Positions 1-20,200 of a stretch of 64,000 nt of DNA are shown piece by piece. The stretch comes from Marchantia polymorpha subsp. ruderalis. Lineage: Eukaryota; Streptophyta; Marchantiopsida; Marchantiales; Marchantiaceae. The notes beneath the pieces are model-generated. The model was not told the DNA's origin. It did no database searches and worked only from the letters and a program-made list of their open reading frames with translations. A program made the position numbers and the translations under genes. Within the stretch, counting starts at the first letter, position 1, and each line of letters opens with the position of its first letter. Location: assembly GCA_037833965.1 (NCBI GenBank), contig AP031358.1, positions 11,354,001 through 11,418,000 on the forward strand, given 5' to 3'.

Positions 1-465
1 AGTGTCCCGTCCTCCGGCTCTGTTCGAGACCGTGTGGTGTGATGTGGTTTGGTGTTTTCTGGCGTGGTGTGGTGTGGTGTGCTGCGAATGAGATGCGTAT
101 GAGCGACATCGAGCAATTGGGATAGAATAGCTTGCGGGACGAGGTGGTGACGAGACCCAGCCGGGCTACGTTTCTAGCAGAGTGTGGGTATGATGTATAG
201 AGGTTTATGACGGTGGTGGTAATTGTGACGAGGGCGGAAGACGATGTCCGACCCGAGGGTTGGAGGGTGCGGTGCGGCGAACGAGGAGTCTGAGTGGTTG
301 TATCTTTGACGCACCAATTGGAATTGTTTAAGCGTGTATGGTTGGTTGGTTGGTGTGTGTGGTAAGAAGTGTACCTGTCGCCGAGTGCTTCCCAATCGAT
401 TCACGGCGAGAGAGTTTAAGGGGAGGGGATGATGTTGAGTGGAGTGCACGAGTCTTTTTCCGTAG

Positions 466-639
466 GGAATTCGGATGGCGTTCTTTGGTGACCGTGGGTA
501 CGGTGGAAGTGCCGGAGGACGTGGTGGCGGATACGGAAGCGGTGGTGGTGGTGGATACGGAAGTGGTGGTGGCGGCGGCAGCGGCCGATCCGATGCTAGC
601 AACTGGAGAGGTGGAAACGACCGACAAAGCGAGTACTGA
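466..639 (+). CDS. Last exon of an unassigned glycine-rich protein (partial)
   Basis: A 58-codon frame starts right after a pyrimidine-rich splice acceptor (ctttttccgtag) and ends at TGA 637-639. It encodes a tail rich in GGY, GSGGGGG and RGG-like units, ending in SNWRGGNDRQSEY. Such tails occur on DEAD-box RNA helicases and other RNA-binding proteins, where RGG/GGY repeats contact RNA and drive condensation. The catalytic or RNA-binding part would lie left of the window, and I found no convincing upstream exon in bases 1-465, so the family stays open. The period of the repeat and its sharp end at a stop argue for real coding sequence, but low-complexity GGN runs can be open by chance. Confidence 0.4.
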   Translation, partial: GIRMAFFGDRGYGGSAGGRGGGYGSGGGGGYGSGGGGGSGRSDASNWRGGNDRQSEY

Positions 640-2342
640 TTAAGTCGGTGTCAGATCTAAGCCGTCACAAGTTCGGGAGCCAGGGCTCTTTCGGCTCTCT
701 TGTTCCTCATGTTCTTCGTTCACCTTCGGTCCCGACACCTTCTTGACACGGGCCTCTTGACTGGAGGTTTTCGATACCGCTTCGGAAGTGGTTCTTAGTT
801 CTCAGTTCTGTTCGTAAGTTTTGGTATATTTGGTTGCTTTAGAACTTGAGAAGGACAGTGGAATTCGATTCTGAAATTGATGACACTGGATCAATTCTAG
901 GTTTATAACGTCCGGCTTCGGGCAGACAGCAACTGTGGTGATTTTTTTTGTGGGGTTCCGATCCTTGATTTCGTACAGGATTACATATAGTTTAGGGTTC
1001 TACGTAGTTAATTTTCGGAGCCCAGGCTGAAAGTTTCGAGCATAGGTTGAAAGCAGCTCGGCGCGCTGGAGTCGTCCGGGAGATCATTCTCGACCGTGCT
1101 CCTGCTGGTCTTGTTAGTTTGATTGGAAGTAAGCAGTACAAGCGCTGTGCTACTGACATATACTTCTTCCTACAATCTGGAGTTTGTATCAAGCAGCTTG
1201 CCTTCAGTCTGCTTGAAATGCTGTTGGTTTCAGCATTTCCGGAGCTTCATGACCTCGTGTTGGAAGTCCATGCCATGTAGAAGAAATTTTGTACCTTAGA
1301 AGACACTCACTAGGTATCTGTAATGGGTTCGGAAGCTGTAGGTTGATTGGATCACGCAGATATTATCCAGCCAGTTCAGCTTCTATCCCCTGAAGTTGCT
1401 CGAGAGCAAGTGATTGCGGTACTGCATGATTCGTAGAGTGGATTCCTTCCTTGATGATCTCCTCCCGTTTGTCACCCAACATTCAGACTTACAGCACTTC
1501 GCTGTTACTTCAGGAAATAGTTCTTACGTGTTTTGAAACTCCTTGGCCTCGTCAGAAGGTCTACCGTGCAAGTCCATCTGCCGATGGGCCTGGTTGCAGT
1601 GAGTGATTTATTGTCAAAGATTGCCGTCCCACTTTACTACAGTAAGATTACAGAGCAAAATAGCCACCAAGATATTGTTAACCCTCTTGGACCGTTAAGA
1701 GTGTAGTAGAAGGCCCTTCATATTCTAGAGGGTTGCCCGTAAGTCAACAGTCAAGCAGTGCTTAGGCTTTGGAGTTGTGGAGATCGGAGCTACCAAGCTG
1801 GATCTGGGTGTCCAGAGCTATGGCTACCTTATAGTATACCATGAAGAATTAGTCTACGCACGATGGAATGCAGCTGTGGAGCTGATGAGGGGCAATTCTC
1901 AGTCTGAACCCTCAAGCAAAAAGAGCTTTCTGCCACTTGAGAACGTATCACTTTGCGAAAGATCCCGAGTTTGTGTGCGTAGCAGGGGTTGGACACAAGT
2001 TGATCAGGTGACTTCTGGTCATACTTCATCAAACTGTAACTGTAGTTGGCGTTGCATTGAGTAGGGGCTTGTAACTTTAGGATAGGCTGAACTTGAGCGT
2101 CTGAAAGCAATCAAGTGTTTCTTAGGTTTGCTTTCTGGAGGAGAATGGAAATTTAGTACTGGCATGTTTCAGCTCCTCAATGTCTACCTCCGACGGGTGA
2201 TAGTGGTACACAAGCCACCAGTATTATCTAAGTTTTCAGTAGTACCCTGCGTTGGGTCCCTTCTGAATCCTATATCCGTCGTCATCCATTATGTACAACA
2301 CGGAACGTTGGACCTTAAATTAGAATGAAGAGTTATTGAAGA
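640..2342. other. No recognised gene; possible 3' UTR or retrocopied transcript
   Basis: No reading frame here resembles a known protein; the open frames are under 100 codons with no domain signature. The stretch is of ordinary composition and runs directly from the glycine-rich stop codon to a genomic poly(A) tract. It could be a long 3' UTR or unrelated intergenic DNA. Confidence 0.3.
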
Positions 2343-2343
2343 C

Positions 2344-2405
2344 AAAAAAAAAAAAAAAAAAAAAGAAGAGAGAGGAAAAAAAATAAAAAAATAAAAAATA
2401 ATTTA
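2344..2405 (+). repeat. Poly(A) tract and A-rich tail
   Basis: About 20 uninterrupted A residues are followed by a purine- and A-rich stretch (gaagagagagg, then A-runs broken by single T). This is the usual look of a retroposed tail or of a simple A-rich repeat. No flanking target duplication was identified. Confidence 0.7.
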
Positions 2406-2836
2406 AAAATATTCTGAAAAGATTGAAAATTTGCACTCAATCTTACCTATATGAGTTTTTTTGGTTGTGAAGACATGTACTTCTATAGTTCTTAGTGTAT
2501 ATGTTTGTTGAGCTAGTGGAAGTATATGTTTTAGCTGTATCTCTTTTCTTATGTTGAACGATTAGAGTAAGTAACAGTTTTAGATTCCTTGCACTAGTGG
2601 AAGGGGAGGTGTGATTTGCTGTTAAGACAGCTTGGTGGAGATATCTTCTGTTCGATGAAGGAGATAGCGTTGGGGACGTGAAAGAAGCAGACACGGAGCA
2701 TGACGAGTGGATGACCTTCTGCGCTAAATGGGCACTTGCAGACGGAAGATGGTAGGGGGCGATGGAGATCGAATCGGGATCACGAAGCGATGCGATGTCC
2801 CGTGTGTGTTGTCTTGTTTGGTGTTGTGTTTCCTTT

Positions 2837-3044
2837 AGACTGGAGAGTCGTTGCTAGCTGTTTGCTTGTGTTTGGATCCTCTCCAGTCTTGCTTCCTGGT
2901 GCGCGCCCGTTTAGGGGTGACGTTGATTTCCGGAGTAGTTTTACTCCTGTGTGCTGGCGATAGGGGGCTGGACTTGATCACCGGCCGGCCTATCTATGTT
3001 TCTCTCACGGTGAGACTGGAGTGATGACCAGTAGACCGTGAGAG
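2837..3044 (+). other. Leader hairpins of the methyltransferase retrotransposon
   Basis: Three inverted repeats lie within about 210 bases upstream of gag. An 11-bp perfect stem has arms 2837-2847 (agactggagag) and 2879-2889. A short ggagta/tactcc hairpin with a GTTT loop follows near 2932-2947. A 10-bp perfect stem has arms 3002-3011 (ctctcacggt) and 3035-3044. Structured leaders in retroelements commonly serve packaging, dimerisation or translation; which applies here is not shown by the sequence. Confidence 0.6.
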
Positions 3045-3239
3045 TCTTCTTGCTGTGATGACAGGTTAGGTTGCCCATACCCCTTGGCTAGTAGGGCTAG
3101 AGTAACTTAGTGCGGCACGACGTCAGGGGCGGATTGGGTTATTGGGTGGAGATCTGGCAGTGGTGCCAGTTGAGGTCTCGTCATCACGGAGCAGTCTAGT
3201 GGTCCTGTTGAGGACCGCGGTGGATTTACGCGGAGCGGG

Positions 3240-4352
3240 TTGAGGTATCGGCTACCTTCACCTATTTTGCCAGTTGTTGCGGAGTACGACCAGAGTGTTG
3301 CAGACACAGAGTCTTTGGTGGTGATATCGTCTAGTGTCCCCACCCTATTGATTTGGGACATGGACGGGATGTACGGGGCCGCGAAGGGCCCTCGACGTTA
3401 CTCTGGTGCAGTGGGCACCATCGAGCTTGATGATTTTATTCAGGAGTTCGACACGTGGTGTGATATGCAGTTTCTTCGTAACCCCACGTTGTTTACACCC
3501 TTCTTTGCATGGAAGGGATTATTCCAGCATTTGGAGGGGCCTCCCATGGACGATTATCATGAGTTTGGGAGAGAGTATGCTGTAGAGATTGATGCATGGA
3601 GACGGCATTGGTCTCCGAACTACTCATCCATTACCCAGGGTGGTGTGGGTACCAGTGGAGGTGCGAGTATCGGCATCAGTGGAGGTGCGAGTAGTAGCAT
3701 CAGCGAGGGTACCAGTGGAGCAGTTGGCGCAACTGGTACTAGTACCAGCAGCGGTACTGTTAGCATTGCCGGTGGCAGCACGAGGGGAGATGCTAGTGTC
3801 GTACCTTCGTTTAGCCCCATTCCTGAGTTCTTCCAGAGATTGAGGAAGAATTATCAGGGGGTGAAAACAGAAAAGTTGAGGAGCCTCCAGGAGTTTGAGC
3901 GGAAGACTGGTGAGAGTCTTCGTGAGGCATACACTCGTATGCGACGGCTCATCTCAGTTACTCACGGTGTGACTGAGGCACAGGCTGTCCAGTACTGGTA
4001 TCGGATCCTGGACAGAGAGTTGCGGAGGAGAGTGCGTGATGCTACTCTCATGAGCGACTCATCACCCACATTAGCCCATGTGTTTGCTCTTTCTGAGAAT
4101 ATTGAGCTTAACATGGTGGAGGAGAGGGTGGTGACGTCTACATTTGCGAGGGACACGACCACGACCTCGCGTATCCCACATAGCCCAGCACAGTCTCGCC
4201 CCATAAGTGGGAGTCGTGGAGGTCATACACGACATCCTTCAGGTCACAGAGAGCCTAGTGCGCGGCCACCACTGCCTTCATTTTCGGGTCAGCCACAGGG
4301 ACCGTCGTGTTGGACATGCGGAGGTAGCCATATGAGGAAGGATTGTCCCTAG
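3240..4352 (+). CDS. gag region of the methyltransferase retrotransposon
   Basis: This part encodes the capsid and nucleocapsid. A serine/threonine/glycine-rich linker occupies roughly residues 125-195, followed by a retrotransposon gag domain (about residues 195-290) with the signature region LQEFERKTGESLREAYTRM. It ends in a CCHC-like knuckle, CWTCGGSHMRKDC. A second knuckle, CDHCHRPGHPRERC, follows at about 4404-4445, so the nucleocapsid appears to carry two RNA-binding fingers. The initiation site is uncertain. The part belongs to the element at 2760-11577. Confidence 0.75.
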   Translation: MRYRLPSPILPVVAEYDQSVADTESLVVISSSVPTLLIWDMDGMYGAAKGPRRYSGAVGTIELDDFIQEFDTWCDMQFLRNPTLFTPFFAWKGLFQHLEGPPMDDYHEFGREYAVEIDAWRRHWSPNYSSITQGGVGTSGGASIGISGGASSSISEGTSGAVGATGTSTSSGTVSIAGGSTRGDASVVPSFSPIPEFFQRLRKNYQGVKTEKLRSLQEFERKTGESLREAYTRMRRLISVTHGVTEAQAVQYWYRILDRELRRRVRDATLMSDSSPTLAHVFALSENIELNMVEERVVTSTFARDTTTTSRIPHSPAQSRPISGSRGGHTRHPSGHREPSARPPLPSFSGQPQGPSCWTCGGSHMRKDCP

Positions 4353-4397
4353 GAGCGAGAGGGACAAACTCCACAGGCTAGGCCACAGCCGGCACAG

Positions 4398-7238
4398 GTG
4401 ACCTGTGATCATTGTCATCGACCGGGTCACCCTCGAGAGCGTTGCTTTGACCTTCATCCTGAGTTGAGATCTGGAGGTAGAGGTCGTGGAGGTGATGCTC
4501 CGCGAGGCCGAGGTGGTCGAGATGGCAGAGGTGGTAGAGGTGGTAGAGGTACCGGGGCCATTGAGCGTACCGCAGCGAGTGCTACTTCTGCCACAGAGAG
4601 CGCTATGGCTGCTCGGATTGAGCAGTTGGAGCAGAGGCTTGCTGCTATGGCAAGTCTGGGGGCGAGCACTTCCACATCTTACGAGGGTGAGGTTTTCTCC
4701 TATTTGGCCAGTGCAGCACAGGTTGAGGCATCAGTTGCAGTGACAAGAGGTGGTGCTCGCACTTCAGAGCCACGTGGTGCGACTGTGGAGTTGGACCCTC
4801 AGAGGGGTGAGGGTGCACGTCAGTCTAGACTTCCCCAGTCCTTTTTGTTGTCAGAGGTGGGTAGCAGTTCATCTATGAAACCTGCACCGCCTACTGACAC
4901 TCGAGTGAGAACTGAGGTTCTTACATCATCTGTTGTGGGCGCAGACGTGCCATCTAGTGCAGTGATGCGGATGGCCACTTCAGTCTTGCGATCTCCATTG
5001 TTCTCAGCCACGGAGTTGACAGACTCTGGTATTGATTTGGCTCGAGTATTTCGGGTAGCAGCCACGTCGTGTGAGCGTGCGAGAGTCGCTACTACTAGTG
5101 CCGAGATAAGTGAGGATACAGTTGAGGACCCATCCTCAACGTCTACATTGTTCAAGGAGACGACTTGGCAGGCCGCAGCGGCGAGGATGGAGTCCTTACC
5201 AGCTCGCCCGGCCATTGATCGCGAGAGTATTGTCCCTGGTGTATGTATGGTGGACAACCGAAGTGATCTATTTCGGTTAGTGAGTTCTACTGGACAGGTG
5301 TATGTCCCAGCCAGAGTTTTGTTGGATTCTGGTGCACAGCCCTTGATGTTGGGTAAGGCTGCATGCATTAGTTTGGGCATTCGGAGGTCCGAGTTGGAAC
5401 CTTGCCCATTCCAGATCCAGACATCCCTTGGTGGTGCCAGCAATAGGTCTTACTTTATGACCAGGGAGAGCATAGCGGTGCAGTTGAGGCATGATCACCC
5501 TCATGATAGCTCGCAGTTTGGAGTTCGTGCTGTGGTTACATCAGCAGAGTCATATGATGTGCTTGTTGGTGGAGTGGTGTTATACCCGATGGGCTTCCGG
5601 ATGGACTATTGGACGGAGACTGCCGCATATCGTCCTGGTTGGCAGTCCGGAGATGGACGTTTGAGCGAGCTGCCAGTGAGATTTATTTCTCGGGATCGAC
5701 CTCTTGGATCTTCGTCAGCGGTCTTGGCATCTGTAGCAGGTTTTAGCGGAGTGCTTACCTGGCCCGATGACTTGTTGGAGGGGAACATGTCTGCCGACGA
5801 TACCTCAGTCTACGAGGATGTGGAGGAGGTTGTGAGTTTCACAGCGGCGGTGACTTCACCCTCAGATGTTCCACTGTGGAGTTCGTGCCAGGCACTACAG
5901 TTGGAAGCTGATAGGTTGGTAAAAAAGGCTTGGAGTGAAGCCTCTTTACCAGCAGAGCCAGAGAGGGCTTCAGCTGATCGGCTAGTTGGTGGTTCTAGCG
6001 CATTGTCTCCATTGGTTACTACACCTATTGCATGGGCGTATTCCTCAGAGGGCGTTTGTTTGCTGGATCTTTTTGGTGGGATCAGCACCGGTTTGGCTGC
6101 GGTGTTGCAGTCAGGTATTCCCATACGGAGATACTTGTATGTGGAGAAGGACGAGACTGCACGTCGAGTCTCTTCACGACATGTTGCACAGTTGATGCGG
6201 CGTTTTCCTTCGTTGTTGCCGCGATCAGCTGTCCAAGGATTCCAGAAGGCGTTGCCTTCAGACATTTCGTTGCTGGGGGCGCCAGACCTTGACCGCGTTG
6301 GCCATATTGATATGGTGATTGCAGGCTGGCCATGTCAGGGACACACACGCGCTGGACATGGGACAGGGTTGCATGATCCCAGATCTCGGATGTTTTGGGA
6401 GATGATCCGAGTGTTACGTCATCTCCATATGCAGCAGACACGTTCTCCAGCATACATTCTGGAGAACGTACCATTGTTGGGTGACACTCGGGCCCAGTTG
6501 ATGGCGAGTGTCCATCAAGTCCGAGCATGGATTGGATCAGCAGTACTGTTGGATGCTGCGAGGGTTGGATCACGGGCGCATCGTGCACGTTTGTGGTGGA
6601 CCAACCTTTTGCCACGTGAGATATTGCGTCATGCCTATGATTCGGTGAAGCGTGATACTAAACTCACCGTTGACAGTATCTTGGATGTTTCCCGGCACTC
6701 TCAAGTAGTGAGAGTTGCTGACAGGTCACCTATGGCGTTGGTGAACCGCGTAGGTCAGCCTCGGATGGCTTTACCTACATTTGTCAGTTATCCGGCATCA
6801 CACGCGTATCGTGATGGGGGACCTGGACTACTATGGGACAGTACCCTACATCAGTTGGTGGAGCCCAACGCTGATGAGAGAGAGCGTGCGATGGGGTTTC
6901 TTCCTGGTGTGACCGCGGCTTCTTCAGTTTCAGAGGCGTCGCGTCGTCAGGTTTTGGGTCAGGCTATGGACCTGAACTGCTTGACGTGGATTGTGAGCTT
7001 GGGTTTGGCCGAGCAACGCCGTTTGCGCGCAGATTTGGTGGTTGTAACACCACTTATTAGCTCATTGCCTACCGGGACGGTAGTAGCAATGGCTGGGGGC
7101 GACAGGCGAGATATTTGTCATCCTTGGAGTTTATGGGACGTGACGAAAGGACTTGCCAGAGTTGCAGCCCATGCAGTTGGAGAGGATTCTCACGTGGAGG
7201 TGGCTACGAAGGAGGGTACGGAGAACCCTTCTTTGTAG
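4398..7238 (+). CDS. Protease and C5-cytosine DNA methyltransferase region of the retrotransposon
   Basis: The part begins with the second zinc knuckle, passes an RGG-rich stretch, and has an aspartic protease core with LLDSGAQPL near 5318 (about residues 305-400). From about residue 550 it carries a C5-cytosine methyltransferase with the family motifs in order: SAM-binding motif I LLDLFGG near 6060; catalytic motif IV GWPCQGHTRAG near 6328, with the nucleophilic Cys; motif VI YILENVP near 6458, with its Glu; motif VIII RAHRARLWW near 6575; a target-recognition stretch; then MGFLPG near 6893 and GQAMDLN near 6957, matching motifs IX-X. The HRARLWW stretch and the DLFGGI..G signature recall DNMT3/DRM enzymes more than DNMT1 (inference). 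It would transfer methyl groups from SAM to cytosine in DNA, plausibly on the element's own cDNA or at its target. All catalytic residues I can check are present. Confidence 0.88.
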   Translation: MTCDHCHRPGHPRERCFDLHPELRSGGRGRGGDAPRGRGGRDGRGGRGGRGTGAIERTAASATSATESAMAARIEQLEQRLAAMASLGASTSTSYEGEVFSYLASAAQVEASVAVTRGGARTSEPRGATVELDPQRGEGARQSRLPQSFLLSEVGSSSSMKPAPPTDTRVRTEVLTSSVVGADVPSSAVMRMATSVLRSPLFSATELTDSGIDLARVFRVAATSCERARVATTSAEISEDTVEDPSSTSTLFKETTWQAAAARMESLPARPAIDRESIVPGVCMVDNRSDLFRLVSSTGQVYVPARVLLDSGAQPLMLGKAACISLGIRRSELEPCPFQIQTSLGGASNRSYFMTRESIAVQLRHDHPHDSSQFGVRAVVTSAESYDVLVGGVVLYPMGFRMDYWTETAAYRPGWQSGDGRLSELPVRFISRDRPLGSSSAVLASVAGFSGVLTWPDDLLEGNMSADDTSVYEDVEEVVSFTAAVTSPSDVPLWSSCQALQLEADRLVKKAWSEASLPAEPERASADRLVGGSSALSPLVTTPIAWAYSSEGVCLLDLFGGISTGLAAVLQSGIPIRRYLYVEKDETARRVSSRHVAQLMRRFPSLLPRSAVQGFQKALPSDISLLGAPDLDRVGHIDMVIAGWPCQGHTRAGHGTGLHDPRSRMFWEMIRVLRHLHMQQTRSPAYILENVPLLGDTRAQLMASVHQVRAWIGSAVLLDAARVGSRAHRARLWWTNLLPREILRHAYDSVKRDTKLTVDSILDVSRHSQVVRVADRSPMALVNRVGQPRMALPTFVSYPASHAYRDGGPGLLWDSTLHQLVEPNADERERAMGFLPGVTAASSVSEASRRQVLGQAMDLNCLTWIVSLGLAEQRRLRADLVVVTPLISSLPTGTVVAMAGGDRRDICHPWSLWDVTKGLARVAAHAVGEDSHVEVATKEGTENPSL

Positions 7239-7734
7239 CCACCTCCACGTAGGTCAGCCTCGGATGGCTTTACCTACATTTGTCAGTTATCCGGCATCAC
7301 ACGCGTATCGTGATGGGGGACCTGGACTACTATGGGACAGTACCCTACATCAGTTGGTGGAGCCCAACGCTGATGAGAGAGAGCGTGCGATGGGGTTTCT
7401 TCCTGGTGTGACCGCGGCTTCTTCAGTTTCAGAGGCGTCGCGTCGTCAGGTTTTGGGTCAGGCTATGGACCTGAACTGCTTGACATGGATTGTGAGCTTG
7501 GGTTTGGCCGAGCAACGCCGTTTGCGCGCAGATTTGGTGGTTGTAACACCACTTATTAGCTCATTGCCTACCGGGACGGTAGTAGCAATGGCTGGGGGCG
7601 ACAGGCGAGATATTTGTCATCCTTGGAGTTTATGGGACGTGACGAAAGGACTTGCCAGAGTTGCAGCCCATGCAGTTGGAGAGGATTCTCACGTGGAGGT
7701 GGCTACGAAGGAGGGTACGGAGAACCCTTCTTTG
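6749..7734 (+). repeat. Internal direct duplication in the methyltransferase tail
   Basis: Two near-identical copies of about 487 bp stand almost head to tail in this span, offset by 499 bp. I see a single mismatch. The joint between them contains a short palindromic filler related to sequence just upstream, which is typical of template switching during DNA synthesis. The near-identity implies a recent event. Confidence 0.85.
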
Positions 7735-7755
7735 CAGTGTGTAGCGTAGCAACCA

Positions 7756-10700
7756 TTGACAGTGTCGCCTCCCTCTAGTGTGCCTATGGAGGAGGAATGG
7801 GAGCCATTGATTGGTTCCCAGATCACAGGAGGAGAGAGGCGACGATTGACACAATTCCTACGAGACTATAGGAGTTGTTTTGCTTTCAGTATGAAGGAGT
7901 TGGGTGCGTTGATTGGACCCGGTATACGGATAGAATTGGCTAGTGATACGCCAATCTTCCGTCGTCCTTATCGATACAGTGAGATGGAGAGAGATTTGAT
8001 TCGGGGTAGGACGTTGGACCTACTGGAGGCTGGACTAGTGGAGTTATCGCATGGTGAGTATGCATCAGCCACTGTCATGCCGGTGAAGAAGGATGTACAT
8101 GGCAACTACACGGATAGGCGCATGTGTGGAGACTACCGTCCTATCAATCGGCAGACGAAGTCCGATAAGTATGCCATGCCTACACCTAAGGAGATCTTCG
8201 ATGTGGTGGGACATGCGAGGATTTTTAGTACTTTGGATCTTCGGGCAGGATACCATCAGTTGCCAATTCGGGAGGAGGACAAAACCAAGACAGCGTTTTG
8301 GGGCGTCAACTCCCACGGCAAGGATTGTTTGTATCAGTGGCGATTCTTACCCTTTGGGTTGAAGAATGCACCTGCCGAGTTTCAGAGGGTTATGGACAGA
8401 ATCCTGGCGGGGCTGGATTTTGTCAGATGTTACATTGATGATATCTTGGTGTTTAGTGACACTGTGGAGCAACACCAGATACACTTGCAGATTGTGTTTG
8501 AGCGATTGAGGGCTCATGGTTTGAAGTTACATCATGGGAAGTGTAAGTTCTTCCAGGAGAAGGTTGAGTACTTGGGTCATGTGATATACCCAGGTGGTTT
8601 AGGAGTTCAGCAAGCAAAGGTGGAGGCTATTGCACGCATCCCTCGTCCCACGGATGTGAGTAGAGTTCGTGCATTTATGGGTTTAGCGAACTACTACCGG
8701 AGGTATGTGAAGGGGTTCAGTGCTATAGCCAAGCCTTTGAACCAGTTGCTGAAGTCAGATCAGGAGTGGCAATGGGGAGATGAGCAGGAGAGAGCTTTTG
8801 TTGAGCTCAAGGCCAGGTTGGTGGCCGCTCCCATCTTGAGGAGACCTATTAGAGGTCGTCCATACCACTTGCACACTGATTGGAGTATGTTGGGACTTGG
8901 AGCGGTGTTGACGCAGCGTGATGATGAGGGCAAGGAGTTTGTGGTTGCGTACGCTAGCCGTTCGAACAATGCAGCGGAGTCGCGGTATAGTTCGTACGAG
9001 GGAGAGTGCTTGGCAGCGGTGTGGGCTGTGGCGCACTTCAGGTGTTACTTGTTTGGTACACAGTTCACCCTTGTTACTGATCATCAACCGCTCAAGTGGT
9101 TGATGGAGTCCGACAAGCTTACAGGGAAGCTTGCACGGTGGGCTCTCATCTTACAGGAGTACGACTTTCAGGTAGTGCATAGACCTGGAGTTGCGAATCT
9201 AGATGCCGATGGTTTGAGTCGAAACCCATGCACTAGCCAGGATGATGACACTGGAGCTAGATGGCATGGTGAGATTGACGAGGAGATGGTGCCTGGTTGG
9301 CATGCATCTGCCTTCATGTGTTGGTTACGTGGGAACTCCAGCAGAGAGGATCATCTGACATCTTACTCTAGTCAGAGAGTAGATGGTCGATCTCCAGATC
9401 CTGAGGTTGAGGATGGTGGTGTGGATCAGCGTGATGTACACGATGATGCATTGGTGTTGGAGTTCCTACGGACCAGCATGGTTCCAGGCACAGTGGGTGC
9501 CAAGGAGCGAGATCGTGTTCTCCAACGGGCCAAGAGGTACCGATTGGAGGGATCACATGTTCTCCGAGTATGGGAGGACGGTAGGGTACGAGTAGTACCA
9601 CATCCAGCCCAGAGAGCACGCATTGTGAGGCATGCTCATGAGGAGTTGGGACATTTTGGAGTGAAGCGTACATACAGCTTACTGCTTGGTCAGTATTGGT
9701 GGCGTGGTATGCATACTCAGGTACAGCAGTTGGTATCACGTTGCATGGTTTGTGATCGAGTGAGGGCATCATTCAATGCCCCGACACCAGTGTTACATCC
9801 ATTACCCATCATGGGGTTGGGTTACCGTTGGAGTTTGGACTTTGCTGGACCACTACCTTTGACTGTACGACATCATCGGTATGTGTTGGTGATGGTGGAG
9901 CATTTCTCCAAGTGGATTGAGTTGGTGGCATTACCTGACAAGGCAAGTGAGGGAGTAGCGTATGCTTTTCTTGACAGAGTGCTTAGTCACTATGGTGCAC
10001 CAGCTGAGGTGTTGACCGATCAGGGAACGGAGTTTGAGGGTGAGTTTCAGGTCTTGTGCGACAAGGCACTGATTGATCATCGGACCACGTCGCGAGATCA
10101 TCCAGAGGCGGATGGTTTAGCTGAACGTGTTGTACAGACGGTGAAGAGGGCGTTGCGCAAGTATGGCCTGCAGAAAGGTCATCTTGGGGACTGGGATATC
10201 CAGTTACCGTGGTTGGCCATGGGATATCGGTTCAGTCGGCAGGCATCCTTGGCTTCCTTCTCACCATATTTTCTATTGTACGGCCGAGATCCAGACTTGC
10301 CAACATCGATTCGTCGTGAGTCTAGCGAGGTGGTGAACCTTGATGACCCGAATATGTGGGTGAGAGTATGTTCTCAACGTGCAGAGCTCTTTCGAAGAGT
10401 TATGCCTGCAGCGTTTGAGAATCTTGCGATTGCTCAACATAGAGATACGTTGCGGTATGCAACCATTCGGGGAGGAGGTTATCGACCATCAATTCGTAGA
10501 TTCCATGTGGGAGACTACGTCTATCTACAACAGACTGCACCGACGACATTGGATGTGACGGCGGGACGCACAATCTTGCGGGTGCGGGAGGTGTTACCTT
10601 CTGGAGTTCTCCTGTTGGAGGGTCGCGACGGCGTTGTTTGGAAGGATCATGTGCGCAATTGTGCGCCATGCCACCTCCCAAACGTAGATGGCACTATGGA

Positions 10701-10878
10701 CCCAAGCTTAGCGATAGTACGTGCTAGCTTGAGGTGCATGCTGTGTGGGTCGGCTGGTAAGGCGGCCCGTATGTTGGTGTGTGATAGGTGCTCTAGGGGA
10801 TGGCACATGTCGTGCCTAACTCCGCCTATCGATGTTATTCCGGCTGGACGATGGGTTTGTCCTCGATGTACTTCATAG
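7756..10878 (+). CDS. Reverse transcriptase, RNase H, integrase and PHD-finger region of the retrotransposon
   Basis: The reverse transcriptase shows FLPFGLKNAPAEFQ near 8345 and the catalytic YIDDILVF near 8433 (about residue 226). RNase H follows, with the TD of YHLHTDWSMLG near 8875, EGECLAAVWA, and TDHQPLKW near 9077. Integrase has an HHCC zinc finger (HEELGHFGVKRTY to CMVCDRV, about 9640-9760) and a D,D-35-E core: SLDFAGP near 9835, TDQGTEF near 10017, and the Glu of GLAERVVQ near 10120. A GDYVYLQQ-type linker follows near 10510. In place of the chromodomain seen in chromoviruses, the C terminus (about 10735-10875) is a complete PHD finger: CMLC, CDRC, HMSC and CPRC pairs form the C4-H-C3 zinc ligands. 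PHD fingers read histone H3 tails, so it may guide integration (inference). Confidence 0.9.
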   Translation: MTVSPPSSVPMEEEWEPLIGSQITGGERRRLTQFLRDYRSCFAFSMKELGALIGPGIRIELASDTPIFRRPYRYSEMERDLIRGRTLDLLEAGLVELSHGEYASATVMPVKKDVHGNYTDRRMCGDYRPINRQTKSDKYAMPTPKEIFDVVGHARIFSTLDLRAGYHQLPIREEDKTKTAFWGVNSHGKDCLYQWRFLPFGLKNAPAEFQRVMDRILAGLDFVRCYIDDILVFSDTVEQHQIHLQIVFERLRAHGLKLHHGKCKFFQEKVEYLGHVIYPGGLGVQQAKVEAIARIPRPTDVSRVRAFMGLANYYRRYVKGFSAIAKPLNQLLKSDQEWQWGDEQERAFVELKARLVAAPILRRPIRGRPYHLHTDWSMLGLGAVLTQRDDEGKEFVVAYASRSNNAAESRYSSYEGECLAAVWAVAHFRCYLFGTQFTLVTDHQPLKWLMESDKLTGKLARWALILQEYDFQVVHRPGVANLDADGLSRNPCTSQDDDTGARWHGEIDEEMVPGWHASAFMCWLRGNSSREDHLTSYSSQRVDGRSPDPEVEDGGVDQRDVHDDALVLEFLRTSMVPGTVGAKERDRVLQRAKRYRLEGSHVLRVWEDGRVRVVPHPAQRARIVRHAHEELGHFGVKRTYSLLLGQYWWRGMHTQVQQLVSRCMVCDRVRASFNAPTPVLHPLPIMGLGYRWSLDFAGPLPLTVRHHRYVLVMVEHFSKWIELVALPDKASEGVAYAFLDRVLSHYGAPAEVLTDQGTEFEGEFQVLCDKALIDHRTTSRDHPEADGLAERVVQTVKRALRKYGLQKGHLGDWDIQLPWLAMGYRFSRQASLASFSPYFLLYGRDPDLPTSIRRESSEVVNLDDPNMWVRVCSQRAELFRRVMPAAFENLAIAQHRDTLRYATIRGGGYRPSIRRFHVGDYVYLQQTAPTTLDVTAGRTILRVREVLPSGVLLLEGRDGVVWKDHVRNCAPCHLPNVDGTMDPSLAIVRASLRCMLCGSAGKAARMLVCDRCSRGWHMSCLTPPIDVIPAGRWVCPRCTS

Positions 10879-11049
10879 GGGTAGATGACTTGATCTTCAC
10901 ATGTTATGAATTGCAGATAGGCGACTAACGATGGGGCGACATAGCACCCGGCCTACTGGTTCGCGCACCCACGAAGGTGTATAGCATGTAGTTGTAGATG
11001 GGGCTACCTGGGAGTCAGAGGGACCTGACCGCCAGCTAGGGGGGCGAGT

Positions 11050-11165
11050 TGTGACATTTGAGTGTGTACTCTCTCGCGCCTTATATGTGTGTATGTGTGT
11101 GCGTATGTGTATGGGAGTAGCATGTCAGCGATGTAGAGTGTATGGCGATATGTATTCGCACGACA
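11050..11165 (+). repeat. 116-bp terminal direct repeat, copy 1 (3' LTR or its start)
   Basis: It begins TGTGACATTTGAG and ends CGCACGACA, with TG...CA borders, right after a purine tract. An identical copy lies at 11462-11577. It contains a GT-rich segment (tatgtgtgtatgtgtgtgcg). Confidence 0.75.
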
Positions 11166-11266
11166 GCTGTCATGTAGTTACGAGTCGGCTCACGAAGTCC
11201 AGACACTTACTATATTTAGCCGTAAAGTTAGGGTTCCGGTCACGAGGGGTATACAGTCGGGGACGG

Positions 11267-11290
11267 CTCGAAGAACGTCAGTTCTTCGAG
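11267..11290 (+). other. Perfect 10-bp hairpin between the two 116-bp repeats
   Basis: Arms ctcgaagaac (11267-11276) and gttcttcgag (11281-11290) enclose a gtca loop. It may be part of LTR structure or a termination signal; the function is unknown. Confidence 0.6.
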
Positions 11291-11461
11291 TCGAGCCTGG
11301 AAGCGTTGGGAGCGTAGAGTGACTTCCCCTTTTGCGTCGACCTGGATTCTCCGAGTGTGGAGTGGGTTGGGCTTGACTCATGTTTGTGACGGTGACGGTT
11401 TGTTACCAGTAGGGTAATTGACCGACGAGAATTCCAGTGGGGAATTCCCGTACATTTCAGT

Positions 11462-11577
11462 TGTGACATTTGAGTGTGTACTCTCTCGCGCCTTATATGT
11501 GTGTATGTGTGTGCGTATGTGTATGGGAGTAGCATGTCAGCGATGTAGAGTGTATGGCGATATGTATTCGCACGACA
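11462..11577 (+). repeat. 116-bp terminal direct repeat, copy 2
   Basis: It is identical over 116 bases to 11050-11165, with 296 bases between the copies. The base after it (11578) is already LINE sequence read on the minus strand, so this marks the right border of the retrotransposon. Either the LTR is about 528 bp and repeats its own ends, or a 412-bp LTR is followed by the start of another copy. Confidence 0.75.
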
Positions 11578-14250
11578 AGTACCACAAGATGAAAAGCATA
11601 ACGAAGTTGACGATTATTGATTTGCCCACAAGCAACAATTGACTTGTAGTTCAGTATTTGAGTTTCTTGGTGATTTTGGTCGCAAGGAACGCATCGACAT
11701 CCACTGTCTCTAGCAAAATTCCAAATGGTGTGACCAGCAGTTTTGACAGCTTTCAAGGTGCTGCAATATGTCATCCAAAAGTGTTCACCCATTGGGGAGG
11801 ATCTGCATTGCCGAACCAATAGAGGTCATATTTGACTCTGTTCAAGCGAAGCCCCGTCGCTTGTCCGAAGTCTTCCAACAGCGTTGATGCCGATTCCAAG
11901 TTTCGCTGAGATCCTTGGAGTGCAAAAGTAGTGTCATCTGCGAATTGGAAAAGAGTGTTGGTTTGCTTCATCGAGTAACCTGATGCATTTGAGGCGGCTA
12001 GACGCCATCACAGCTTGAGTTGCATATGCCAATGCTTCGGCGACGATCATAAAGAGGAACGGCGCTAACAACACTCCAGTCCAACACCCCGTCTAATTAG
12101 GAACTGAGTTGTACACATACCGTTAATTGACACGGTCGCTGATGCATCTTCAAGAAGGAGTTTCATAATAGTTACAAGTGTCTCCGTAATACCCATCCGC
12201 GTCAAAGCCTGGAATAAAAAGTCCCAATTCACAGAATCATACGTTTTGCAAAATTGAGTTTCAGCATGATTAGTGATTGATTCGATTCTTTCGCCCACGC
12301 TATTGTTTCATGCTCCACCAGCACCGTGTCTAAGATATAGCGAGCAAGGAGGAAAGCCAATTGACCCTCATGAATCATTTCGGGGAGTTCAGCCTGAAGA
12401 CGAATTTGAATTGTCTTTGCCAAAATTTTGTAGACACTATTCAACATTGTGATGGATCACCAATTTTGGATATATTCCAGATCTCCATCTTTCGGCAATA
12501 GCAAGAGTGAATCTTTATTCATCCCTGGCGGCAGCTTCCCTTTAGTGATCGATTCAGTGATCATAGTCGTAAATTCCTATCCCATAATATGCCAGAACTG
12601 AAGCTAGATTTATGTCAAGACCCCGTCCGGCCTGAAACTCTTCTCGTTTGACATCTAGTCGAGAACGTTACGCAATTTTGCATTATCTATAGTCCTTCTA
12701 AGTGCTGCAATGACTGGGCCGGAAATCAATCCACCAAGTTATTCGGTAATAACCCCAGGATTGTCGCTTCGGCAAGATCTGATTGAGACGACTTGGGTGC
12801 TGCAACGTACAATTCGGTATAGTAAGCTAGTGCACATGCTTCTACTGCAGCTTTCTTTGTAGCCCTTATTCCATGTTCATCGTGAAACGCTGATATTTAA
12901 GCTGATGGTCCACGCTCCTAGACTACTCTAAAAAATTCTTTACTAATTTGGTCACCCTTGAACTTCCATTGGATGCGAAATCTTATTTTTCTCCTTGCTA
13001 GTTTTTGGTCCTGAAGTTCCAATAGCTTCATTCGACACTCCTCACGAGCTTGCATGAACAACACATCATTAGTATGAATTTGGACCTACCACGTAGCTTC
13101 CTCAAGATCTTTAGAAATAGCCTCCTCGTCTGCCCGAAAGCTTGCTGCTTTGGTGCGGTACATGCCTTGGTAGAATCGAATAACCTTGCGTAATTTGGCG
13201 AAGAAGGTAAGAATGTGATGGACGTCCTTCCAGATGCTTCGAATGGATGGCGCTGCTTCTTCCAGCCACTTTGAGTTCATTTTCCAATGTGTGATTTTTG
13301 CCGGTTTGTCTTCCAGTTGAACCGAAGCAAATACTAGGTGGTGATCCAACCTAGTCAAATCGCCTTTGATTGTGTAAAGGGTTAACTTGGGTTCCAGTGC
13401 ATTCGCAATATTTTTGAAAAGATAAAGTATGTCAAGTCTAGCCATAGCGCGATCATCTTCTTCTCGATTGTTGGTCCATGAGAATCTCAAACTTCCGGAC
13501 GATGGTTGATGATCCTCGGGGTTAAGGCTGGTCTTCATTGCGTCAAATAAAACGCATTCTCAGAAGAGGATAAAGGTGCCGCTCAGTCTGGTAGTGTCCG
13601 CTGTGTAACCCACCATATTGAAGTCTGTTGAAGTTGTTTACATAAGATGCATATGTACGGTGACTCATTTATTGATTACGCCCACATTGCCCCCCGGGAG
13701 AGGCCTTGAAATATTAGCCATAGGGCTTTATTTTGAAGTATTGTGCCATGGGCGCTCACACTCCTAGCTCATCTAGGATGCATTAGGGACATGACCCCGC
13801 CACATCCGGCACCCGAGACATCTGCTACATGACCATATTCTACTGTGACTTCAATGCCATAACAAGTAGCTTGCCGCCAAAGTCGATGACCTGTTTGTTG
13901 TAAAGCCAAACCTCTAAGCTTGTGTTCCGGTATGTTGACAACGTTTGATAACGGATTGCATGAGTGGTAGTATCTTGAACAGTATCCACTGCGGCACTTT
14001 CATTGAGGCCGCAGACATTTATAGTCACGATGTTGAACTTCATACTTCATCTGAAGGAGCTGTAGCGGCTCCGGCGCTCTTGGTGATAACTCTTCTAAAT
14101 CCCCAGATGTTGTACGATGGGGGTCAAACCGTGGCCGAAGTGTTGATTTGCCTTGCTGCAACTCTAAAGTTACGCAATGATACCGGGACGCCTCATGTTG
14201 GAAGGGTGACTCATTTCTCTTATCCGTCACTAGCGCCTCGTTCATCATTA
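11578..14250 (-). mobile_element. Decayed LINE (L1-type): endonuclease and reverse transcriptase
   Basis: Read right to left on the minus strand. An endonuclease start lies near 14043 (MKFNIVTINVCGLNES), its C-terminal part with RLDHHLVFASV near 13330, RT fingers/palm NSVYKILAKTIQIRLQ near 12440, KTYDSVNWDFLFQALTRMG near 12240, and the catalytic FADDT near 11940. The coding trace continues as VGKxTIVNFVM down to about 11590 and then stops abruptly at the retrotransposon border. Frame changes and stops are scattered through it, and RT thumb and C-terminal parts are missing. It once made an endonuclease/RT for target-primed retrotransposition and is dead now. The gypsy element to its left probably inserted into it; the rest of the LINE was not found on the far side. 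Confidence 0.85.
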
Positions 14251-17051: not shown

Positions 17052-17271
17052 AGATGGAGATCATCATTCGAATGATGGAGAAGATGATGATGAGGGTAAG
17101 ACTCATCGTATGCCTAGGAGAGGAGAGAGCTTTGGCTATCTTGGAACAACCAATTCCTTTTGTGTTTCCTTTGATGAATTACTCAAGGATGGAGTTAGTG
17201 TTGTTTATATTGTATTAGGAAGCCCCATATAAATTTCCAATAAAAATAAAAATAAAAAAAATTAGTTGGAA

Positions 17272-20200
17272 ATGGGGAAGCTTCCGGTATTTTATGGGAG
17301 GGAGAATGAGGATGTAGAAGCTTTTGTTAGGGACTTCAAGAGGGCTTGCATAGGAAACAATGAGAGGAAGAAGGACGAGTGGGCTATGCTTTTGCCGGAT
17401 TTCTTGGAGGATTCTGCTCTCAAGTGGTACAAGGAGTACAAGAGGGAGCATTCGGAGGACGACACGTGGGAGACATTAACGGAGAACCTGATCGAAAACT
17501 TTCTTCCCAGTGAAAGTTATGAAAAGTTGATGTGTGAGGTCACCTTCTTGAAACAAGGAGAGAACGAGAAGGTGAGGACCTATGTGGAGAGAACCGAGAA
17601 GTTGGAATCTAGATTCCACGTGGTGTTGAGGAAGGGCGGAGACGAAGTGGATGCTACAATGGTGGGGATAAGGGCGATGCTCATGAAGAACTTCGTTGGA
17701 GGTTTGAGACCTGAGATTCGAAGTAAGGTGAGATACGAGAAGCCCTCTTCTAAGGCTGAAGCCATTCGAATTGCTATTAGAATGGAGGAGAGCTTAGAAG
17801 ATGATGATTCTAGCTTGGTGGCTAGAGAAGTAGCTCCACCGGTTGTAGGAAGGTCTATTGTTTCAAACACTTCTACTTCATCCACGATAGCGAATCCTAG
17901 TGTGGATTTTCAAAATGAGTTGAAATCTATCACGGAGACTCTAGCAGATCTCAAGATCAATGTAGTACAGTTGTGGGAGAAGAGGAATCAGAACGTAGTA
18001 GGAGGCTCTAGGGGGTATGGAAATTATCCTCCAAGAGGAAATCCACCTTCAGGAAACTTTGCGGTTTCTTGCTTTTCTTGTGGAGGTCCTCATTTTCAGA
18101 GGAATTGTCCTAACCCTCGACAACATGATGGAGTTCGGCACAACAACAATGCACCGGCCACGCAACAAGCCAAGGATAAGGGAGTAGCATCCATTGATGT
18201 ATTCCCTCATCAATGCACTTTTGAGAAAGGGGAGAGCTCAAAATCGAAAGTGGATATCCTTGCTCATGAGAAGAAGCGGGCCCGATTTGCGGACGAGTCG
18301 ATTTTCATGGAGGACACGCCAAGTCGAAGTACACGGTCAAGTGGAGTGAGTCAACCAAGAGTACCAAGGAAGAAGTTGGGCATGGATGACTTTTCCATTT
18401 CATCTTCTCAAGCTAAGTATGACGTGGTGGAGGATGTAGGAAATCAGAAGGCCAATATAACAGTTGGTCAGCTGATTGCCTTGAATCCAGCCATTCGGAA
18501 GGAGTTAAGAGGAGGTCTTATCTCCACAAGGACCAAGAAGCGGAAATCTAAGGGGAAGGCTCACATGAGCAATGTGGGAGTTGGGGTGGTGGATGCGGCT
18601 GCTTCGGAGGTATGTACACATGCTTCAAAGATCGAAGTGAGGATCAATGGACATGATGTATCAGATGTGTTGGTTGATGGTGGATCGGCTGTGAATGCCA
18701 TGTCTGAGAGGTTGATGCAGAAGTTGGGTATGCAACCTTCTAGACCTTCTAGCATAATTGTTGGTATGGCCAACAAACAGAAGGTAAGACCACTGGGGGT
18801 GGTAGACAAAGTTGTGGTTAGTGTGAGGGGAGTGCAAACTTTGCTTTCCTTCCAAATTCTCAAGGAAGCTAGCTACGACTTGCTGTTGGGACGTCCTTGG
18901 TTGAGGGCGGTAAGGACTACGGACCGATGGCACAAGGGCTATTTGAGGATAGGCCCAAAGAACCATCGAGTTAAGGTTCCTTTGACGAGAGGAGGGGAAT
19001 CCACCACTGACTCAGATAGACCAACTGACGAGTATTGGGAATCTGAGAGTGAAGAGAGTGGTAGCTTTTCAGAAGTTGACACAGACATCTCAACTTCTGA
19101 TCAAGAAACATCATCGGAGTACTCTTCTGATGATAATGTTCAAGTACAAGTCATTGCTGCCATGGAGTTGTTGCCTAGGCCTGGAGTGAAGAAAGATCCT
19201 GACAAAGTGGAGATGAGCGAAGAGGAGGTGTGTCGACGACTGTCCACTCTCAGGTTTGGTCCCAAGGTTACCAAGGAGGAAAAGGCAAAGTTTCTGGATA
19301 TATTTCGCAAATATATTCATGTTTTTGCCTTTAGTTACAAGGATCTTAAGCATGTGACGTTGGAGACTCATCGCATCGAGTTGGAGGAGAAAGCTCGTCC
19401 TATTCGGCAAAAGCAACGCCGAATAAATCCACCTACGGCTCTTGTGGTGAAGGAGGAGATCGACAAGCTCAAGGAGGCTGGCTTCATCTACGAGGTAGAA
19501 AATTCTGAATGGGTGTCTCCAATTGTGATAGTGAAGAAGAAGAATGGTAAGCTACGAGTGTGCGTAGATTACAAAAAGTTGAATGCTGTCACAAAGAAAG
19601 ACTACTATCCCTTGCCTTTCATAGATGAGATTCTAGAGGAGGTTGCTGGCCATGAGTGGTATAGTTTTGGAGATGGTTATAGTGGCTATAACCAAATCCA
19701 AATTGCCTTAGAAGACCAACTCAAAACAACTTTTACTACTCCATGGGGAACCTTCGCTTTTAGAGTGATGCCGTTTGGTCTATGTAATGCTCCTGCCACT
19801 TTTCAAAGGTTCATGAATAGAGTGTTTGAACCTTTCATTGGAAAGTTTGTAAGGGATTTCATAGATGATTTTTGTGTTTACGGGAGGAAAGCGGATCATT
19901 TTGATCATTTGATCAAAATACTTCAACGGCTGGAGGAAGCTAAGGCTTCACTCAATCCAGAAAAATGCATTTTTGGATGTGAGGAAGGCCTATTGTTGGG
20001 GCATATCATCTCCAAGAATGGTATAGCGGTGGACCCAGAGAAGGTGACACGGATCATGGAGTTACCTTTTCCGGCGACTTTAACCAAGTTGAGGCAATTC
20101 CTTGGTATGGTGGGGTACTATCGACGGTTCATCTTGTCCTTCTCCAACAAAGCTCATGCCTTGACAAATTACATGAAGAAGGGAGTGGAGTACGAACTCA

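Follow-up and report, generated by a model that had tools for sequence, protein, structure and literature searches.

The window examined here is a stretch of 64,000 nucleotides from the liverwort Marchantia polymorpha subsp. ruderalis (assembly GCA_037833965.1, contig AP031358.1, positions 11,354,001 to 11,418,000). Its positions 1-11577 hold most of a Ty3/Gypsy-type retrotransposon that carries a cytosine methyltransferase of its own. The 3′ end of the element is at 11577, and the 5′ end lies upstream of the window. It encodes Gag, protease and methyltransferase, and behind these reverse transcriptase (RT), RNase H and an integrase that ends in a PHD finger. The 5′ terminal repeat, called A, was found at C9:11353436-11353726 (565-275 bp upstream of the window) and shows a single mismatch over 292 aligned bases against window 11168-11459. 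Since this repeat starts 565 bases ahead of the window, the whole element measures about 12.1 kb. Its features are listed below; ORF stands for open reading frame and pN/pS for the ratio of nonsynonymous to synonymous polymorphism.

1-2756, plus strand: 5′ part of the element, after the 5′ repeat, up to the region common with the fetched copies (homology to locus L041 from 2757)
3240-4352, plus strand: N-terminal part of Gag, stopped by an in-frame TAG at 4350-4352 (Retrotrans_gag E 0.0087, below the cut-off)
4398-7238, plus strand: remainder of ORF1, with the Gag zinc-knuckle part, protease and methyltransferase, ending at a TAG inside the fold-back of the duplication
5298-5597, plus strand: aspartic protease region, recognised by the LLDSGAQ motif at 5319 (pN/pS 0.197)
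6015-7052, plus strand: DNMT3-type C5-cytosine methyltransferase domain, stop-free, with catalytic motifs (PF00145; PDB DNMT3A/3B; pN/pS 0.222)
6746-7737, plus strand: tandem duplication, two 493-bp copies (spacing 499, 15-bp fold-back 7192-7206/7236-7250)
7747-7755, plus strand: candidate leaky stop UAG-CAACCA (UAG-CARYYA) at the ORF1/ORF2 border (once in each of 21 loci; UAG-CAAUCA in the relative L017)
7756-10878, plus strand: ORF2, with RT, RNase H, integrase (H2C2, rve) and a C-terminal PHD finger (Pfam)
10729-10875, plus strand: PHD finger at the integrase C-terminus (PF00628, E 7.4e-11)
11047-11165, plus strand: repeat B1, 119 bp
11166-11458, plus strand: GC and repeat A2, the partner of the 5′ terminal A (palindrome GACAGCTGTC across the junction, 11162-11171)
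11459-11577, plus strand: repeat B2 and element 3′ end (..CACGACA), followed by the 4-bp target duplication AGTA at 11578-11581

The proteins of the element are those of the Ty3/Gypsy group (Metaviridae). The order is RT, RNase H, integrase, and Ty3 RT ranks first in a PDB search with the element's RT (E 4e-73). The protease has an Asp_protease_2 match in L017 (E 7.8e-4, below the cut-off). Rfam gave no match at gathering score. The locus almost certainly represents a Gypsy-type retrotransposon family with its own DNMT3-type cytosine methyltransferase.

A preliminary description of this DNA, made from its letters, had quoted a set of methyltransferase motifs between the protease and RT. All of them are present: LLDLFGG at 6060-6080, GWPCQ at 6324-6338 (catalytic cysteine codon 6333-6335), ENVP at 6462-6473, AHRARLWW at 6576-6599, MGFLPG at 6891-6908 and GQAMDLN at 6957-6977. 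Their position between the protease and the RT motif YIDDI at 8431 is as described, with 6015-7052 as the best bounds of the domain.

Several lines of evidence place the enzyme. Pfam PF00145 matches the ORF with 38.7 bits (cut-off 22). As to METHYLTRANSFERASE kind, a profile built from 10 element methyltransferase domains has its best PDB matches in chains of DNMT3A and DNMT3B (E 5e-24). After these come 4onj, entered as “DNA methyltransferase” and presumably a DRM (E 6e-12), DRM2 (E 8e-9), and then HaeIII and HhaI. An identity as CMT or MET1 is unlikely, no CMT- or DNMT1-named chain being among the 46 PDB sequences at E <= 1e-6. The motif order is canonical, with motif I ahead of IV, VI, VIII and X, whereas host DRM-like frames (L036 and L040) have a permuted order. 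A DRM is ruled out by this order. The preliminary reading as DNMT3 or DRM survives in its first half, by similarity and by tree, and fails in its second, since the element's motifs are not rearranged.

The enzyme tree comprised 92 rows: 80 representatives (<65% identity) of 149 extracted methyltransferase rows, 4 host or human rows, and 8 of 16 rows from IMG/VR or Streptomyces. All 80 enzymes from elements fall into a single clade (100/99), to which the host DNMT3 and two DRMs do not belong. Human DNMT3A and the host DNMT3, which was matched in two pieces at C6:12459414, pair with each other (97/90) outside this clade, and the domain is therefore not a host gene. Element enzymes, host DNMT3 and human DNMT3A are united against DRM at 95/52, which is weak on one measure. 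Long branches were flagged for P0164 and human DNMT3A, and unlike composition for the host DNMT3, one DRM and others. The IMG/VR search returned 16 loci with distant matches only (26-51% identity over parts of the domain), some of which served as outgroup. Judged from its sequence, the methyltransferase is of DNMT3 type.

The family is large and recently inserting. The genome search covered 241 Mb in 9 contigs and gave 653 candidates, 117 of them scored, and all counts are lower bounds. There are at least 117 domain matches with 88-100% identity, each over at least 327 of 346 residues, and they are spread across all 9 contigs. A stop lies within the match in 48 of the 117 listed copies and is missing from the other 69; in 27 the match is stop-free and lies in an open frame of 1324-1365 aa. 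For 95 of the 117 an RT match lies on the same strand no more than 4 kb downstream (none was scored for 22), and 81 of these 95 listed pairs are spaced exactly 1542 bp. The preliminary description had left room for a one-off chance fusion, which these copies and their fixed spacing rule out. Neither of the two findings that it had named as refuting its reading, a lack of further copies or a place among host genes in the tree, was obtained.

Selection on the enzyme can be read from the copies. Twenty were fetched, being the closest to the window among the 27 whose open frame reaches 1324 aa or more. Because they were chosen for long open frames, the selection estimates are biased to intact copies; pairs are not independent, and 2 of the 24 distinct copies compared carry a stop. 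Pooled pN/pS is 0.222 for the methyltransferase (24 copies). For the other parts, with 16-24 copies each, it is 0.257 for Gag, 0.197 for protease, 0.187 for RT, 0.062 for RNase H, 0.174 for integrase, 0.298 for the PHD finger, 0.342 for the spacer between protease and methyltransferase, and 0.574 for the tail that follows the enzyme. All 24 copies retain the catalytic cysteine, ENV and the two arginines of motif VIII, and two other motif positions are each changed in one copy. The methyltransferase sequence is under purifying selection. With more than 100 copies and selection on the sequence, it is most likely that the element itself uses the enzyme.

The window copy is recent but damaged, although its methyltransferase domain itself is uninterrupted. 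The preliminary description had called the coding region well preserved. Contrary to this, the TAG at 4350-4352 interrupts Gag at a place where the relative P0001 from Marchantia reads Q. A tandem duplication follows, with copies at 6746-7238 and 7245-7737 that are 99.4% alike over 493 bp; at its join the fold-back brings a premature TAG at 7236-7238, behind the methyltransferase domain. Since the spacing of 499 is not divisible by three, the RT frame is out of step. The resulting methyltransferase-to-RT spacing of 2041 is seen in the window copy alone among the 95 pairs listed.

The 5′ part of the window copy is also unusual. Positions 1-2300 are a chimera of sequences from elsewhere in the genome, with pieces that match different chromosomes: 1-497 resembles C5:7373791 (98%), 486-839 resembles C3:28603974 (99%) and looks glycine-rich if read as coding, and 829-2300 resembles C2:24880481 and C5:21061155 (98%). 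Overlaps of 11-12 bp at the joins look as if the pieces had been captured via template switching. At C2:24880481 and C5:21061155 the sequence of the last piece adjoins an extra frame ahead of Gag. This frame of 116-119 aa occurs in 13 of the 20 fetched copies (for example at L041:299 and L043:293; one is shortened to 83), has a pooled pN/pS of 0.26 and 138 genome matches, some of them fragments, and matches nothing in Pfam; it is missing from the window copy.

The border between the two frames suggests how their products might be made in different amounts. The Gag-protease-methyltransferase frame stops at TAG-CAACCA in 18 of the 20 fetched copies, the exceptions being L054, which is rearranged, and L058, where a TAG comes earlier. 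The second frame continues in frame after the stop for 1042-1045 aa and is open in 15 of the 20. The nine-base context occurs once per locus in 21 loci. Conservation within a family that is 97-98% identical carries little weight. The context is also retained in L060, which is about 87% alike. In L017, whose enzyme is 48% identical, TAG-CAATCA stands at the same border, likewise in frame. Both versions fit UAG-CARYYA, the leaky stop consensus of tobamovirus type; CARYYA follows 6 of the 3239 stop triplets on the plus strand of the window. Folding of the 100 bases that begin at the stop is more stable than that of shuffled sequences, with z -3.5 for the window (0/200 as good) and z -2.7 for L017 (3/200 as good). 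Occasional read-through of UAG-CARYYA probably produces the RT/integrase part. If so, the enzyme, standing ahead of the leaky stop, should be abundant in particles.

The ends of the element have an uncommon layout. The repeats are arranged as A, coding region, B, GC, A, B, that is, as split direct repeats. Two full flanking long terminal repeats (LTRs) are not present; A stands alone at the 5′ end and B-GC-A-B at the 3′ end. The element is therefore called Gypsy by its proteins, with a non-standard repeat layout. A standard LTR layout was looked for and none was found within the window, the 5′ partner of A being 565 bp upstream. The ends read TG..CA, and 10 of the 11 elements with both ends read have a 4-bp target duplication (the exception is L058). 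Such ends, with target duplications of 4-6 bp from a DDE integrase, are those of Ty3/Gypsy elements; as the element has a DDE integrase, the 4-bp duplications are as expected. A DIRS-like retrotransposon with a tyrosine recombinase is ruled out by the rve integrase and these duplications.

The number of GC-A-B units varies. One unit is found in 15 of 21 loci and two in one locus (L043:8734-9508), while L050 and L056 stop at the first B; L045, L054 and L060 were unscored. In L056 the short form is flanked by a perfect 4-bp duplication (TGAT), and the 5′ end of L050 was unread. The junction GACAGCTGTC is present in L017 too, at 7051. The B-GC-A junction may be that of a circle-type intermediate from which the integrase would take off two bases.

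The integrase ends in a PHD finger, which is found in both of the element types described below. Its closest PDB chains include CHD4, PHF12, KMT2D, DPF3, PHF21A, KDM5B and ATXR5. Several of these PHD proteins bind unmodified H3K4. The finger in the window has no Trp two residues ahead of the zinc His, a position that is presumably the H3K4me3 cage.

Relatives of the element occur in several green plants. The enzyme matched 60 proteins: 20 from Marchantia polymorpha, 2 from Calypogeia fissa, 2 from Sphagnum, 1 from Closterium and 35 without an organism name. Over the stretch of the domain that aligns, the Marchantia proteins show 64-93% identity and the top eight of them 84-93%, which supports the land-plant host that the preliminary description had guessed from the letters. 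Counting four frames of the window and L017 together with 174 proteins found, 178 proteins were examined. In type 1 (57 proteins) the enzyme stands behind the protease and/or before the RT; in type 2 (110 proteins) it follows RNase H and/or immediately precedes the integrase. The remainder comprises 2 with the enzyme behind RT, 7 with the enzyme alone and 2 with none.

In the enzyme tree the 67 rows of type 2 make up a single clade (96/94), with members from Haematococcus lacustris and Chlamydomonas eustigma. Of the six type 1 rows, five group together (99/95, with one unlabelled row), and P0169 falls outside. The RT tree used 39 of 89 RT rows, with two rows for type 1 and two elements without the enzyme as outgroup. 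In it both types, except P0164, are joined to the exclusion of Ty3 and of the other gypsy in the window (100/97). With two outgroup elements and two type 1 rows, enzyme-free relatives may lie inside this clade. The trees suggest one old enzyme-bearing lineage with the domain in two places; alternatively, there may have been two separate captures of related enzymes.

Some further observations concern these relatives and the rest of the window. In at least 24 of the 67 type 2 representatives (for example P0050 and P0051) motif IV reads ECQ, ECA, ECN or ECS for PCQ, a change adjoining the catalytic cysteine; the motif IV pattern missed 18 of the 67 rows. L017 (CADCWO010000201.1) is a 9.3-kb contig with both main frames and 127-bp overlapping ends, filed in a cyanobacterial metagenome-assembled genome, where it is probably eukaryotic contamination. 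Window 17266-22038 holds another Gypsy element, different from this one, whose 1590-aa frame is intact. Its translation showed no methyltransferase, and no further search was made.

Hosts silence transposons by cytosine methylation. A transposon with its own selected methyltransferase thus raises the question of when methylation helps a transposon. The most likely role of this enzyme, as far as sequence can tell and on what is about an even call, is methylation of the element's own cDNA in the particle. Through occasional read-through, the methyltransferase would reach the abundance of Gag and be packaged into the particle, where it would methylate new cDNA, probably at CG, ahead of integration. 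The PHD finger of the integrase, whose nearest fingers often read unmethylated H3K4, would steer insertion to chromatin without active marks, and in such chromatin a pre-methylated insert would be inconspicuous. These steps taken together form the best explanation of the element and are considered somewhat probable. Methylation of cDNA gains from the SymbioDIRS-Dnmt3 enzymes of dinoflagellates, which according to the accessible text of de Mendoza et al. (PMC5890265) methylate CG de novo in yeast.

A number of observations weigh against this explanation. KnitGypsy-Dnmt3, an algal relative discussed below, gave no methylation in yeast, a result that its authors call inconclusive in the accessible text (PMC5890265). 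The element has a CpG observed-to-expected ratio of 0.76, compared with 0.77 for window 22100-64000 and 0.55 for another gypsy. CpG is not depleted, so there is no compositional sign of heavier methylation than elsewhere; depletion as a trace of self-methylation was looked for in the element and not seen. The type 2 enzyme sits in Pol, and dosage at the level of Gag is therefore not essential. Read-through is not universal either, since P0169 has protease, methyltransferase, RT, RNase H and integrase (PR-MT-RT-RH-INT) in one frame without a stop. The specificity of the PHD finger is deduced from sequence kinship alone. The choice of 20 copies with long open frames favours a low pN/pS. Finally, 55 of the 150 RT matches listed have no listed methyltransferase match within 4 kb upstream, and among the matches listed these may or may not include enzyme-free relatives.

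The enzyme could instead act in trans, having leaked into the nucleus, where it would methylate host DNA or silence competing elements or host defence genes and be selected for changing the host. High copy number and the predicted expression at Gag level would yield much enzyme, and an uncontrolled retrotransposon DNMT as a driver of dinoflagellate methylomes is discussed in the accessible text of de Mendoza et al. (PMC5890265). The domain, however, is part of a polyprotein with Gag and protease, which is expected to be packaged into particles, and a benefit shared by other elements would be hard to select for. The same text reports that K. nitens, which has such elements, keeps a land-plant-like methylome, and action in trans is considered unlikely. 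A role on RNA, as in DNMT2, or in mere nucleic acid binding that aids packaging or reverse transcription without DNA methylation, would suit the position on the Gag side. It would also suit the inconclusive lack of methylation of yeast DNA by KnitGypsy-Dnmt3, the closest described relative (PMC5890265, accessible text). This role is improbable given that DNMT3A/3B rank first (E 5e-24) with DRM2 and HhaI far behind, that no DNMT2 chain is among the 46 PDB sequences at E <= 1e-6, and that the catalytic set is retained in 24/24 copies.

That the domain is a functionless hitchhiker or a recent chance fusion was already disfavoured and is very hard to credit. The stops within 48 of the 117 listed copies would be in keeping with it. 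Against it stand the pN/pS of 0.22 from a biased sample, the fixed spacing in 81 listed copies, the relatives in mosses, liverworts and a charophyte alga, and a sister group that includes chlorophytes, with an RT tree that broadly matches.

A wider picture can be offered tentatively. An ancient green-plant lineage, reaching from chlorophytes to liverworts and mosses, would have replaced stealth by self-marking. The writer would be made at capsid level (in the liverwort branch), and the integrase would carry the chromatin reader. A DIRS-like B-GC-A circle junction, its two extra bases cut by the DDE integrase, would give A-B, A-B-A-B and longer forms, and pre-methylated DNA would go into chromatin already without active marks.

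As the sole Gypsy case found described is from a charophyte alga, the family extends such elements to land plants, including the laboratory model Marchantia. In this host direct tests can be made of the enzyme and the PHD finger, as well as of read-through and of methylation on extrachromosomal cDNA. The split-repeat ends together with integrase-type target duplications pose a separate question about replication.

Literature searches by title or abstract opening, with most subscription papers outside their reach, gave no report of such elements in liverworts, mosses or chlorophytes, and no Gypsy element with split repeats or an integrase PHD finger. They also gave no direct precedent for a leaky stop at this place of a Gypsy element. 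Marchantia or mosses are not named for such elements in the accessible text of PMC12344493, PMC6453930, PMC9516144 and PMC10952607.

Individual features can be compared with several known systems. The candidate leaky stop and its next six bases fit the tobamovirus consensus. Ginger1 transposases have a Gypsy-related integrase and, in one listed family, a PHD finger in the C-terminal part; they are DNA transposons, and the accessible text does not mention a methyltransferase (PMC2836005). PAT and Ngaro elements likewise have split direct repeats (A1-B1-A2-B2). According to the accessible text they use a tyrosine recombinase and have neither an integrase nor target duplications, unlike the present element with its DDE integrase and 4-bp duplications (PMC4157794).

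Retrotransposon-encoded cytosine methyltransferases are also known from dinoflagellates, as SymbioDIRS-Dnmt3 and SymbioLINE-Dnmt. SymbioDIRS combines a DNMT3-type enzyme with an A-coding-B-A-B repeat layout, as here. These elements use tyrosine recombinase or LINE machinery, unlike that of the liverwort element, and their acquisitions are, per the authors, independent of the Gypsy one (all from the accessible text of PMC5890265).

The closest known system is KnitGypsy-Dnmt3 of Klebsormidium nitens (de Mendoza et al. 2018, PMC5890265; accessible text). No row named Klebsormidium appeared in the protein searches, in which many rows are unnamed, and the link is therefore made through the described anatomy. 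By this anatomy the liverwort element is of the KnitGypsy-Dnmt3 kind, with a DNMT3-type domain, Gypsy proteins and DIRS-like repeats. The two have in common the Gypsy domain set, an enzyme without the DRM rearrangement, and purifying selection. The KnitGypsy repeats are called DIRS-like, a wording that the A-int-B-A-B layout fits. The liverwort element differs in its land-plant host and in the place of the enzyme, which is reported in the Pol ORF for KnitGypsy and here lies ahead of the stop with Gag and protease. A PHD finger, read-through and target duplications are not mentioned for KnitGypsy in the accessible text. A DNMT3-bearing Gypsy element was already known, and the liverwort case adds to it.

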